DNA of 64,000 nucleotides from Chitinophaga sp. GTDB lineage: Bacteria; Bacteroidota; Bacteroidia; Chitinophagales; Chitinophagaceae. Of the stretch, positions 49,452 through 64,000 are shown one piece after another. Numbering within the stretch: position 1 is the first letter of the stretch; the number at the start of each line of letters is the position of its first letter. Where the stretch lies: NCBI RefSeq assembly GCF_017745275.1, contig NZ_JAGHZS010000011.1, forward strand, positions 124,001-188,000, written 5' to 3'. The notes below the pieces were generated by a model. That model worked only from the letters and a program-made list of their open reading frames with translations, ran no database searches and was not told where the DNA came from. The position numbers and the translations under genes are program-made.

Positions 49452-49997
49452 TTACCACAGAAAAAAAATATTTTTTTTACCCACTTCCTGACGAAGCTGT
49501 ATAATGGCCCTGTGGGTAAGGTTATAGACCGTACGGAGACTGGTATTTTTGGCATCTGCAATTTGCTGGAGCGACATATTTTGGAGAAACCGGAGCTCAA
49601 TCACTTCTCTTTGGGCCGGGGTTAATGTTTGTAAAGCCTGTTGTATACGGTTAAACTGTGCAGTAAAAATATCCGCGTCTTCCCGGGTGTCCGCGGAAAG
49701 GTTAATGAGGCTGCTCACATCGGTGAGCTTCTTTTCCCGCCCCCATTGTTCAATTAAACGCCGTTTAAAGGCGGTAAGCAGGTAAGCTGATACGTTGATA
49801 TCGGACGACAAATTGGCCCGCTTCTCCCAGATATAAATAAAAAAATCATGTAAATGATCCTTTACAAAAGCCGTGTCGCCATCCAGCCACTTACAGCCCC
49901 AAACAAACATGCGTGAATAATATGTATCATATAATTCACGGAATGCAGCTTGTTCACCAGCACAAAATTTCATCCAGATATCGCGTTCATCAGGCAT
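49452..49997 (-). CDS. ECF RNA polymerase sigma-70 factor
   Basis: KDHLHDFFIYIWEKRANL; sigma4 LTPAQREVIELRFLQNMSLQQIADAKNTSLRTVYNLTHRAIIQLRQ. ORF extension to 50069 runs into the palindromic repeat; ATG at 49997 (MPDERDIWMKFC) preferred. Confidence 0.92.
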   Translation of the reverse strand: MPDERDIWMKFCAGEQAAFRELYDTYYSRMFVWGCKWLDGDTAFVKDHLHDFFIYIWEKRANLSSDINVSAYLLTAFKRRLIEQWGREKKLTDVSSLINLSADTREDADIFTAQFNRIQQALQTLTPAQREVIELRFLQNMSLQQIADAKNTSLRTVYNLTHRAIIQLRQEVGKKNIFFLW

Positions 49998-50057
49998 ACC
50001 ACATCGCCAGGCAGGCGTTTCTCTCGTATTTTGGTTGAGGCCAAAGATATATAAAAG

Positions 50058-50227
50058 AGCAGAAAGCATAAAGCAGAAAGCAAAAAGCTATTTTAGCGGA
50101 TGATCAGAATAATCCTGCCCACAGACAAAATCCGCTCTGATCATCCGCTAAAATAGCTTTTTGCTTTCTGCTTTATGCTTTTTGCTTTCTCTTTATGCTT
50201 TTTGCTTTCCGCTTTATACTTTCTGCT
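50058..50227. repeat. Intergenic palindromic element, copy A, with heptad GCTTTNT tandem flank
   Basis: 46-nt perfect inverted arms 50063-50108 / 50136-50181 (right arm tctgatcatccgctaaaatagctttttgctttctgctttatgcttt), 27-nt loop; heptad tract ~50156-50227. Confidence 0.9.
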
Positions 50228-50230
50228 CTC

Positions 50231-51364
50231 CTACAATTTTTCTTTCTTTCTTATTTCTGCAAACAAAGCCTTAAAAGTGTTTACGTTGGCCATAGTGCCG
50301 GGGCGTACGCCTTTCCGGCCATAATATCCATCAATAAACTCTTTCGTATTTACCCACATGGTTTCAAATATGCCCGGCATACGTTCCGCCAGTGTGCGGG
50401 AGAAGTCGGCCTGCAACGCATTTTTGCGGGCTGCATATACCTGCTCCAGTTGCGCCATCGCCGAAGATTCCTTTCCACACGAAGACGGCAATACCTGGAA
50501 TCCTTTCACCGCAAAGTAGGCAGGCGTTGGAGGCGCATCTTCATACTTCCAGTCGCAGATCATAATATCCTTAGGTATCATATCTATTGCACGCGCCGTA
50601 TTGTTCATACTGGCCTGCCAGGCCAGCAGGTTGGTTTCCTTACCATCTATCAGGCGATCACTCCACATCCACATCTGGCATTTTTTTTCTTTGAGATGCT
50701 GATGCAGGGCGGTCACATAAGCCCCGAACAGTTCCGCCGGATCTTTACCACCACATCGCGGACATTTATTATACCCAATGATCCAGGCCTCATCCAGGCC
50801 CACGTGAAAAGCATCTGCGCCGGTTACTTCAATCAGCTCATCTACCAACGGGAAAATGATTTTGAACAAATCAGGATGCTGCGTACACAAGCACTTGCTG
50901 TAGAAGTCGAACATGCCACCATCCTTCCAGGGCACCGGTGGATTGTAATCAGGCGACTCATCCAACTGCGGATACTTCTTCAGCAGCGGCCCTATCTCCG
51001 TTTGCTCCGACTGATGTGCCAGCAGGTTCACTGTCGGGATAAAGCGGATCTTCGCTTCTTTACAGGCCTGTACAATCTGTTTCAAATCTTCTTCCGTGAT
51101 ACCATTCCATTCCGCTACTTCCGGGTCAGATTTAAACTTGTAGGCCAGCTCAATTCTTAGTGCCAGCGTATTCACACCTTCCGCTACCAATGCTTTCTTT
51201 ATAAAATCACAGAGCAGCGGCACATCCTGCCGTTGCGGCACACTCAACAACAATCCTTTTACGGGCAGCACGTTCCATTTAAAAGGAGCTGGCTGTTGTG
51301 CGCGCACCTGGATAAACAATAACATCAAACATCCTGCTAATACAATTTGCTTTAACCTGGTCAT
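50231..51364 (-). CDS. GH20-like (beta-N-acetylhexosaminidase-like) secreted glycosidase
   Basis: Signal peptide; GADAFHVGLDEAWIIGYNKCPRCGG (H-x-G-x-D-E as in GH20), RFIPTVNLLAHQSE, MWMWSDRLIDG. Confidence 0.75.
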   Translation of the reverse strand: MTRLKQIVLAGCLMLLFIQVRAQQPAPFKWNVLPVKGLLLSVPQRQDVPLLCDFIKKALVAEGVNTLALRIELAYKFKSDPEVAEWNGITEEDLKQIVQACKEAKIRFIPTVNLLAHQSEQTEIGPLLKKYPQLDESPDYNPPVPWKDGGMFDFYSKCLCTQHPDLFKIIFPLVDELIEVTGADAFHVGLDEAWIIGYNKCPRCGGKDPAELFGAYVTALHQHLKEKKCQMWMWSDRLIDGKETNLLAWQASMNNTARAIDMIPKDIMICDWKYEDAPPTPAYFAVKGFQVLPSSCGKESSAMAQLEQVYAARKNALQADFSRTLAERMPGIFETMWVNTKEFIDGYYGRKGVRPGTMANVNTFKALFAEIRKKEKL

Positions 51365-61680: not shown

Positions 61681-61737
61681 GGCAGTATCGATATAGGTAA
61701 ACAACAGTATGCATATAAGCGGAAGGAAGTTAATATT

Positions 61738-61773
61738 TTATCGGGATGTTTTCTTTTAAAAAAACACCCCGAT
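61738..61773 (-). terminator. Hairpin downstream of the SnoaL-like gene
   Basis: tatcggga tgtttt...aaaaca ccccgata. Confidence 0.55.
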
Positions 61774-61808
61774 AATCTTAAAAGCACAACAAATCGCTAT
61801 TTAGCGGA

Positions 61809-62156
61809 TTACAGGAAAGGCCGGGGATCAAAAATCACTTTCAGTGAACTTACCTTGCCACCATCCAGGTGGTACCAGGCGCAGCCAAAAACGTTTTTAC
61901 CAGACATGGTAAGATCATAAAACAGGCATACGTCTTCCTGGTCTGCAAATACTTTCTGCACATCATATTTCAGTTTCATTTTTCGCATATCATCAAAATA
62001 AGCGGCAGCGCCTTCCCGCTTACCCAGCACGCCTTCAAAGGTCATGTTGTCGTTGGCCAAACGTTGGGCGGCATCAAAATCTTCCTCGTTAATGGCTTGT
62101 ATCAGGGAAAGCACTACTTTCGCATTATCTGATACCGGGTTGATCTTTTCCATCAT
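61809..62156 (-). CDS. SnoaL/NTF2-like small protein
   Basis: VLSLIQAINEEDFDAAQRLANDNMTFEGVLGKREGAAAYFDDMRKMKLKYDVQKVFADQEDVCLFYDL. Confidence 0.8.
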   Translation of the reverse strand: MMEKINPVSDNAKVVLSLIQAINEEDFDAAQRLANDNMTFEGVLGKREGAAAYFDDMRKMKLKYDVQKVFADQEDVCLFYDLTMSGKNVFGCAWYHLDGGKVSSLKVIFDPRPFL

Positions 62157-62212
62157 ACACTCATTTTATTTATGAATTGCCGCGAAAAAATCGTACCATT
62201 TATTGTGAAGCT

Positions 62213-62488
62213 GAAAGCAAAAAGCCGAAAGCAAAAAGCTATTGAAGCGAAGGATCAGAGCGATTTTTTGTCTTTTCCAGGATTAAACTGATTATACTGA
62301 TTTTATTTTTTTGATTTAGAAAAAAATAGAGAGAAGAAAGTTAGCATATCTACCTTTTTCTTCCTATATCTTTTAAATCTTACAAAATCATCAAAACAAA
62401 TCTGTATAATCAGTTTAATCCTGGAAAAGACAAAAAATCGCTCTGATCCTTCGCTTCAATAGCTTTTTGCTTTCGGCTTTTTGCTTTC
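62213..62488. repeat. Large intergenic palindromic element, copy B
   Basis: 85-nt perfect inverted arms 62213-62297 / 62404-62488 separated by 106 nt that is itself partly self-complementary; flanked by GCTTTNT heptads. Confidence 0.95.
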
Positions 62489-62645
62489 TGCTTTTTCCAA
62501 ATGTTCATAACCCAATCAAAAATGTGCGTTTCTTGTGAAAATCTTCCGTGGATAACTTTAAACTTCTCGTAAAACATCTATGTTGTTAACAAAGAATTTA
62601 CACTTGATAATCTGCATTCTTCTACCTTGAATGCAAACAGCAAAT

Positions 62646-64000
62646 ATGATCGGCAACCCCTTTTCTATTCGAAAAACCTGGAAAACTATGAAAATGACGA
62701 CTACATTACCCAGGACCACCAGTCAAAGTGCTGAAGCAGCGGAAACAACGGAAAGGATTATAAAGATTGTCAATTCATTAGCCATTGGCGCCAGCATGCT
62801 CGCGCTGGTATTAGGCTGCTTATTATATTATATGACCGGGTATAAGAGCATTCTGTACCCGGCCCTTGTGGAAAGCGCCTGCTTTCTATCTATCCTGCTG
62901 GTCACGCGGTACAGCCGGCCGGAATACGGGCAGCAAATCATGTTCCTGCTACATAGCGTGTCTATCTGGTATTTCGGTACCCTACTGGGGCCTGCTTCGC
63001 AGATCTACCTGTTTGCCCCCTTCCTGGCATTTTGTGTATTCCTTGTATTTCACCGGCCACTGGCCCAGGCCATCGTTTTAACGACCAGCGCAGGCATGAT
63101 GCTGCTCATTGAATTAAATTACCGCCGCGGTATTATCCCCTCCCTGACATTAACAAAAGATACCGAGGCAGCGCTGCACTGGCTCGTAATAACAGCGGCC
63201 ACCTTCCTGAATGGAACTGCCTTATATTACTTCACCCGCGAAAGCCGCTTCCAGAACAGGCAGCTGCAATTGCTGGTGAACCAGTTGGATAAAACCAACC
63301 AGGCCATGCGTATCTACGTACGGGAAACCACCCATGAAATCAGGTCCCCGCTGAACGTAGTGAACAGTATCCTGCAGAACTATATTGAAACAGCCGACAG
63401 GGGTAAACGGACCGTCCAGGTAGGCATCGCCCACCTGGAAGCCGTTCATTTCGCCTGCCAGGATATGCAGCTCGTGATGAGCAACGCCCTTGGCTGGTCC
63501 AAGATTGAAGCAGGGAAAGATGAAATCAATAAAAGCCCCTTCCTGTTCACCGATTGGATACAACAACTCTGTGATACCTATGAGTACCTCGCCAAAAGAA
63601 GATCGGTACATATTAATATTGCCTTCAGCGATCACCTGCCGGAATATATCCTGGCAGATAAATCAAAACTTCGCACCATCATCGTAAACCTGCTCAGTAA
63701 TGCGATTAAGTTTACCACCTTCCGCTCTATTATTACGGTAAAAGCCACCACAAAAAATAACCTACTCCTACTCTCGGTAACCGACCAGGGTGCAGGTATT
63801 TCGGCAGATAAAAAGGAACACATTTTTGATCCGTATGTGAGCGAACAGGGGCAACAAACAGAATCCAGCGGACTGGGACTCCCCATCGCACGCCATATGG
63901 CCCGCATGATGGGCGGCGACTTAACCGTGACCGATAACCCTGATGGCGGCGGCAGCGTATTTACCCTGCAACTGCCCGTAGAAAGCATTGCTCCGCCGCC
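62646..64000 (+). CDS. Membrane sensor histidine kinase (truncated by the window end)
   Basis: Translated by hand: several TM segments, His box RETTHEIRSPLNVVNSIL, N box LRTIIVNLLSNAIKFTT, VTDQGAGISADKKEHIFDPYV, SSGLGLPIARHMARMMGGDL; no stop before 64000. Start codon uncertain. Confidence 0.88.
   Translation, partial: MIGNPFSIRKTWKTMKMTTTLPRTTSQSAEAAETTERIIKIVNSLAIGASMLALVLGCLLYYMTGYKSILYPALVESACFLSILLVTRYSRPEYGQQIMFLLHSVSIWYFGTLLGPASQIYLFAPFLAFCVFLVFHRPLAQAIVLTTSAGMMLLIELNYRRGIIPSLTLTKDTEAALHWLVITAATFLNGTALYYFTRESRFQNRQLQLLVNQLDKTNQAMRIYVRETTHEIRSPLNVVNSILQNYIETADRGKRTVQVGIAHLEAVHFACQDMQLVMSNALGWSKIEAGKDEINKSPFLFTDWIQQLCDTYEYLAKRRSVHINIAFSDHLPEYILADKSKLRTIIVNLLSNAIKFTTFRSIITVKATTKNNLLLLSVTDQGAGISADKKEHIFDPYVSEQGQQTESSGLGLPIARHMARMMGGDLTVTDNPDGGGSVFTLQLPVESIAPP

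Follow-up and report, generated by a model that had tools for sequence, protein, structure and literature searches.

The long palindrome near the right end of the window, a 64,000-nt stretch of Chitinophaga DNA, belongs to the dispersed bacterial palindromes. It is one of a large, non-coding family carried by a group of Chitinophaga species. The reading we prefer, and to which we give slightly better than an even chance, is that of a dispersed, non-autonomous palindrome family whose arms are homogenised at the DNA level and whose members serve mostly as bidirectional terminator hairpins at the 3' ends of genes. The element probably helps to end transcription. If this is right, a dispersed repeat turns over as the 3'-end or terminator module of many genes, and species exchange conventional terminators for the element at corresponding junctions. 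The copy in the window is an atypical member, being long, nested and placed between divergent genes. The relevant features of the window are the following.

62208–62308, no strand: left arm of the window palindrome, 101 nt, perfect over 85 nt (62213–62297)
62393–62493, no strand: right arm of the window palindrome, 101 nt, perfect over 85 nt (62404–62488)
62208–62262, no strand: outer module, left, with 7-nt repeats (NNAAAGC) and core TATTGAAGCGAAGGATCAGAGCG, as in the short members of ~127 nt
62439–62493, no strand: outer module, right, mirroring 62208–62262
62263–62308, no strand: middle module, left (ATTTTTTGTCTTTTCCAGGATTAAACTGATTATACTGATTT...), known from long members and from stand-alone copies
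62393–62438, no strand: middle module, right
62309–62392, no strand: inner module, a degenerate hairpin, kin to the stand-alone family "GATTTAAAAAGATnnGGGAGAT..."
61809–62156, minus strand: SnoaL-like gene flanking the palindrome
62500–62630, plus strand: leader/promoter region of the histidine kinase gene
62631–63998, plus strand: sensor histidine kinase gene, continuing beyond the end of the window
50058–50186, no strand: second family member in the window, short, with arms 50058–50108 and 50136–50186 (51 nt, 98%)

The initial annotation had described an ORF-free palindrome with perfect arms of 85 nt and a loosely self-complementary interior, situated between divergent genes, and this description held throughout. 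Over all of their 85 nt, 62213–62297 and 62404–62488 match each other exactly as reverse complements, the interior at 62309–62392 forms a further, degenerate hairpin, the palindrome holds no ORF of at least 60 aa, and the neighbours are the SnoaL-like gene on the minus strand and the histidine kinase gene, from 62631, on the plus strand. With four mismatches included (62212, 62298, 62304, 62305), the arms extend to 101 nt at 96% identity. The predicted fold of the palindrome strand has an energy of -172 kcal/mol (z = -23.6), and none of 100 dinucleotide shuffles came near this value. The short member is located between the start of one minus-strand gene (49452–50069) and the 3' end of another (50231–51364), and extra heptads beyond it reach to about 50229.

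The annotation had also named a single genomic copy as a finding that would refute it, but the element proved to be multi-copy. With the palindrome DNA from the window as query, 133 matching pieces were found in the same genome (7.94 Mb, 23 contigs). A 16-nt core pattern gave 129 sites, while the reversed control pattern gave none. A covariance model (R2) built on the outer module, with counts taken as strand-matches among the matches listed, gave at least 150 strand-matches at about 95 places in this 7.9-Mb genome. By the same model, with counts as lower bounds, the family is abundant in C. hostae 2R12 (G034), C. eiseniae Ak56 (G018) and C. polysaccharea 1209 (G019), and a further genome, G053, is nearly equal to these three among the matches listed; G027 and G057 had 45–47 matches each. 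Matches occurred in 25 of the 60 congeners sampled and were absent from 35. Among 200 genomes sampled from the taxonomic family, just two genera had matches, and the element is almost lacking elsewhere in that family. Its distribution is lineage-restricted and patchy. Nothing similar to it was found in phages or plasmids, and an origin from either was rejected.

The standard short member is about 127 nt long and consists of two halves mirrored about a loop of approximately 20 nt. Each side has four 7-nt repeats (AGC AGAAAGC NNAAAGC NNAAAGC AAAAAGC) and a core (TATTGAAGCGAATGATCAGAGCG), in the order four repeats, then AAAGCTATTGAAGCGAATGATCAGAGCG, then the loop; exactly four heptads on both sides were counted in 60 of 127 scored copies. 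The arms measure about 38–106 nt in most members. Long members, of about 250–310 nt, are nested: within the outer module lie a middle module (...GTCTGTnnACAGGATTAAACTGATTATACTGATT...) and, at the centre, the inner hairpin, and these two were found alone as well. The ends of the unit are symmetric (AGC...GCT) and are flanked by purine/pyrimidine. GC content of the covariance-model matches was 0.28–0.46, and either strand reads as an A-rich 5' arm, a long stem and a U-rich 3' arm.

All over the genome the copies occur as complete, sharply bounded units whose flanks are unrelated, and near-identical copies share the entire unit. Alignments of the 14 most similar copy pairs, flanks included, revealed no target-site duplication to the eye, and two neighbouring element pairs, 0.6–0.75 kb apart, enclose DNA of ordinary look. 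The element appears to spread as a unit, and it seems to enter the loops of other hairpins too, which would give rise to nested copies like that in the window. At L031 and L052 the flanks form an older inverted repeat, and the element lies within it. Insertion into older hairpins as a general rule was rejected, since outward complementarity of the flanks was just slightly above control overall and clear in these two cases. Local hopping was rejected as well, since copy similarity was independent of distance overall, despite the near-identity of the members of the two neighbouring pairs.

At the window site, DNA upstream of the SnoaL-like gene could be aligned with C. hostae as far as 62204, and conservation of the histidine kinase leader, seen in at least seven congeners, begins at about 62500, the right edge of the element. 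Both edges of the palindrome are therefore limits of conservation. None of the congeners inspected has a palindrome at this site. C. hostae has a PepSY-type gene between the SnoaL-like and the kinase genes, and the 3' end of this gene has a conventional terminator-like hairpin; a PepSY gene was found upstream of the kinase in two further relatives. The window palindrome has probably either arrived recently or remained as the 3' end of a PepSY-type gene, since lost, such as the one present there in C. hostae; the second possibility, a guess, would account for the rare divergent setting. The palindrome lies between two divergent promoters, where termination of neither neighbour is at issue. Five of 12 long members, the class of the window copy, are divergent, so long members may just be less constrained. 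The kinase leader itself, 62500–62630, is unusually well conserved in Chitinophaga (ATGTGCGTT..., ...TTGTTAACAAAGAATTTACA..) and is perhaps a regulatory site.

Positions of 136 model-found members were determined from codon-scored gene calls. Convergent gaps held 65 of them, tandem gaps 66 and divergent gaps 4, with one unassigned, and the numbers rose to 83, 79 and 6, respectively, when more loci were added; as the loci were fetched for carrying the element, these counts describe the element and not gene gaps generally. None of the 136 members, and none of 217 long palindromes, was found inside an ORF. Stop codons were within -20 to +30 nt of an arm in 177 of 197 cases, at a median of 3 nt, while start codons were at a median of 63 nt. 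The earlier remark that the element is not a simple terminator was fair for the divergent copy in the window, but this copy is unrepresentative, as most members are found exactly at gene 3' ends. In 53 of the 65 convergent cases the element leaves no space for another terminator. Of 32 convergent gaps free of the element, 22 had another significant hairpin, which was either a conventional terminator or another long palindrome family, and within the window the convergent gaps without the element have textbook A-stem-T terminators. A classic terminator was adjacent at 8 of 184 gene ends with the element, versus 41 of 276 other ends from which the next gene was over 60 nt away.

Fifteen junctions, found via the element in one species and via position in the other, were compared. 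The second species had the same family at four of them, another palindrome at four, a short hairpin at three and none by the strict rule at four. A conventional hairpin in one species versus the element in the other was seen at four junctions: L179/L139, with AAAAGAGCCCCCCGCTttatAGCGGGGGGCTCTTTT in the window's own genome and the element in C. hostae; L172/L164, with AAAAAACCTCACTGGATATTTCCAGTGAGGTTTTTT versus the element; L178/L134, with a hairpin of 24 nt at L178 (also recorded as L112) versus the element; and L170/L163, with the element versus another short hairpin. At least two of these four involve textbook intrinsic terminators. The pair L173/L165 represents a clean empty site. The sequence of A-rich 5' arm, stem and U-rich 3' arm on both strands, together with the replacement of terminators at convergent junctions, suggests that the element acts as a bidirectional 3'-end or terminator hairpin. 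Against termination stand the AT-rich stem and the T tract, which is interrupted by GC every 7 nt. Some members (L109, L215 and others) adjoin an intact classic terminator, so the element is not always needed as one.

The annotation had proposed to look for covariation of the arms with a covariance model, and covariation was found: in an alignment of 17 short copies, double changes affected 14 of the 37 stem pairs, compared to 6.4 ± 1.5 in shuffles. The same copies had 36 double-changed cells and few G-U cells, and pairing dropped from 95% to 40–50% in slid controls. Over 136 copies the two arms were 96.8% identical within a copy versus 83–86% between copies. At 11 junctions occupied both in the window's own genome and in C. 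hostae, 280 stem pairs were unchanged, 37 had double Watson-Crick changes and 20 were one-sided or imperfect. By hand count, 22 of the 37 mirrored changes were transition-type and 15 transversion-type; the latter cannot pass through G-U, which points to copying at the DNA level. Watson-Crick swaps, A-T to T-A included, far exceeded G-U intermediates. Perfect arms had been said to imply recent origin, homogenisation or selection. Homogenisation between arms agrees with the 97% within copies versus 83–86% between them, while recent origin is not a necessary implication, because arms at shared orthologous junctions have diverged between species yet stayed paired.

Identity of the arms may be maintained in the DNA itself, either because the polymerase switches templates (quasipalindrome correction) or because another copy replaces or converts the sequence. 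Template switching is established as a mechanism acting between the arms of inverted repeats (PMC8794818, PMC8604942). Eight cases could be tested for the alternative, and in every one the copy was closest to another copy of its own genome and not to that at the orthologous site; whole-copy replacement is thus a real possibility. Mirrored differences at shared sites can also be explained by replacement from another copy, and template switching is not isolated as their cause. With a hundred or more long palindromes per genome, the family would be a natural system in which to measure homogenisation of the arms, as named congeners offer orthologous copies for comparison. Covariation, however strong, does not prove that an alignment represents an RNA, and the Watson-Crick swaps seen here may have originated at the DNA level.

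Several other explanations were weighed against these data. The element could be a purely selfish, non-autonomous mobile palindrome, moved by an enzyme in trans, without any function for the cell and tolerated at 3' ends since insertions elsewhere were purged. We lean against this possibility but take it seriously, as it agrees with the sharp-ended whole units in unrelated flanks, the species-specific copies at shared sites, the patchy and lineage-restricted distribution, the empty site at L173 versus L165, the nested forms, the frequent divergent placement of long members and the members beside an intact terminator. Purging alone, however, leaves unexplained why arms start at a median distance of 3 nt from the stop codon, and do so on either side at most convergent junctions, and why a conventional hairpin is usually absent where the element is present; the lack of target-site duplications, of a Y1 transposase and of any phage or plasmid likeness also counts against it. 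Selection at the RNA level, with 3'-UTR hairpins that stabilise mRNA or act as small-RNA precursors and with compensatory mutations that restore pairing, would fit the very stable fold, the 3'-UTR position and the covariation of stem pairs. We nevertheless regard it as decidedly improbable. The slight excess of G-U over A-C mismatches on the sense strand at tandem sites (55 versus 38) was not significant (p = 0.10) and had weakened from a smaller earlier count of 41 versus 24 once more copies were added, and the preponderance of Watson-Crick swaps, those from A-T to T-A among them, over G-U intermediates also counts against it. The orientation of the loop relative to transcription is random (7 sense, 14 antisense), and the region 61700–63000 matched no Rfam family at gathering score; sub-threshold matches were almost all to microRNA-precursor models scoring a long hairpin.

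Spread by a RAYT (Y1) transposase, as in REP/REPIN families, is hardly credible for this element, even though many copies, a palindromic form, intergenic location and frequent occurrence at gene 3' ends are shared. The transposase domain PF01797 was absent from the window's own genome (G000) and from all other element-rich genomes searched (G034, G018, G019, G053, G027 and G057), while it was present in 13 of the 60 congeners, none of them element-rich and all with few or no copies. No enzyme for the movement was found. Least weight of all, next to none, is given to an assembly or inversion artefact, which had been named as a possible outcome against the palindrome. Three contigs of the assembly, C3, C11 and C19 (L219, L221 and L220, respectively), do begin exactly at the centre or inner edge of such a palindrome, and the repeats thus disturb assembly. 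However, the genome has about 95 related palindromes, dozens of them with differing flanks, and there are many more in independently assembled congeners, among which C. hostae has palindromes with a different arm sequence at shared junctions.

Returning to the family of homogenised terminator-like palindromes, we compared it with known systems. REP/REPIN elements are defined by a short stem of 5–13 bp that has a GTAG or CGTC tag next to one of its ends (PMC3733652). The element resembles them as a high-copy intergenic palindrome with lineage-specific families, clusters and mutual insertions (PMC3116915, PMC3733652), but it has no such tag, its stems are far longer, and RAYT is missing from the element-rich genomes; a classic RAYT-dependent REP was rejected on these grounds. 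The annotation had proposed a non-autonomous element of MITE or REP type. Its behaviour as a non-coding dispersed repeat is confirmed, whereas neither the REP nor the MITE part was upheld. Like a MITE, the element is a short, non-coding, dispersed inverted repeat with unrelated flanks, but target-site duplications were not seen in the 14 copy pairs, nor a parent insertion sequence in the DNA enclosed by the two neighbouring pairs. Integron attC sites were rejected by eye: the ends are AGC...GCT, GTTRRRY / RYYYAAC boxes are absent, and the members are dispersed and form no cassette array.

The likeness to bidirectional intrinsic (Rho-independent) terminators consists in the position directly after both stop codons, in the A-rich 5' and U-rich 3' arms on both strands and in the presence of conventional terminators in place of the element at orthologous junctions. 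The element differs from them in its much longer, AT-rich stem, in the 7-nt period of its T tract and in being a dispersed family and not a set of unrelated local hairpins; a GC-rich stem with an uninterrupted T tract was not seen (GC 0.28–0.46; T tract GCTTTTTGCTTTCTGCTTT). Quasipalindrome correction, or template switching, would explain the jointly changing arms, including transversion-type swaps that skip G-U (PMC8794818, PMC8604942), but it is a mutation process and not an element, and the two papers deal with RNA genes and yeast inverted repeats and not with a dispersed bacterial family. Judged by description, the nearest known analogue would be found in filamentous cyanobacteria, in their small dispersed repeats (SDR) and heptameric repeats. 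Both SDR and the heptameric STRR repeats were reportedly described from Nostoc and other filamentous cyanobacteria by Elhai and co-workers in 2008; SDRs are 21–27 nt long. By that description they too are small, non-coding, dispersed and clade-restricted, with compensatory hairpin changes, 7-nt tandem repeats, nested insertions and no dedicated transposase, whereas the elements described here are about 127 to 300 nt long, are near-perfect palindromes, have their heptads within the arms and are found at stop codons. The SDR of cyanobacteria are named in PMC3116915.

A broader and rather unlikely proposal is that of a class of hairpin-homing palindromes, in which unrelated families with a shared architecture (arms of 7-nt repeats and a core) would colonise gene 3' ends, insert into terminator loops and into one another's loops, take over from these hairpins as working bidirectional terminators and be kept perfect by arm-to-arm copying, all without a transposase of their own.

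Other palindromes were observed in the course of the analysis. A separate intergenic family of like architecture has heptads (AATTACG)n and GATTTGTGGGNAGAT (L162:12625-12733, L161:16525-16615, L035:2635-2749, L102:464-562, L028:672-771). A third family has heptads TTAGCNN and core AAATGCAGCGGAGAT (L218:2919-3021, L170:10417-10506, L104:667-726, L163:14967-15046, L142:12763-12851) and replaces the element described here at several orthologous junctions. Palindromes of CGCAAAG-like repeats represent a further family of like kind (L045:52-124, L223:800-862). Inner hairpins resembling the stand-alone form (GATTTTAAAAGAT..GGGAGAT..) were found at convergent junctions (L165:11770-11843, L124:3478-3551, L166:17961-18030), the first of them in a long nested element. 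Finally, a one-sided heptad tract (GCTAACC/GCTAAAA; L173:16626-16800 versus L165:15918-16171) is expanded in C. hostae relative to the window's own genome, and its second arm is absent.
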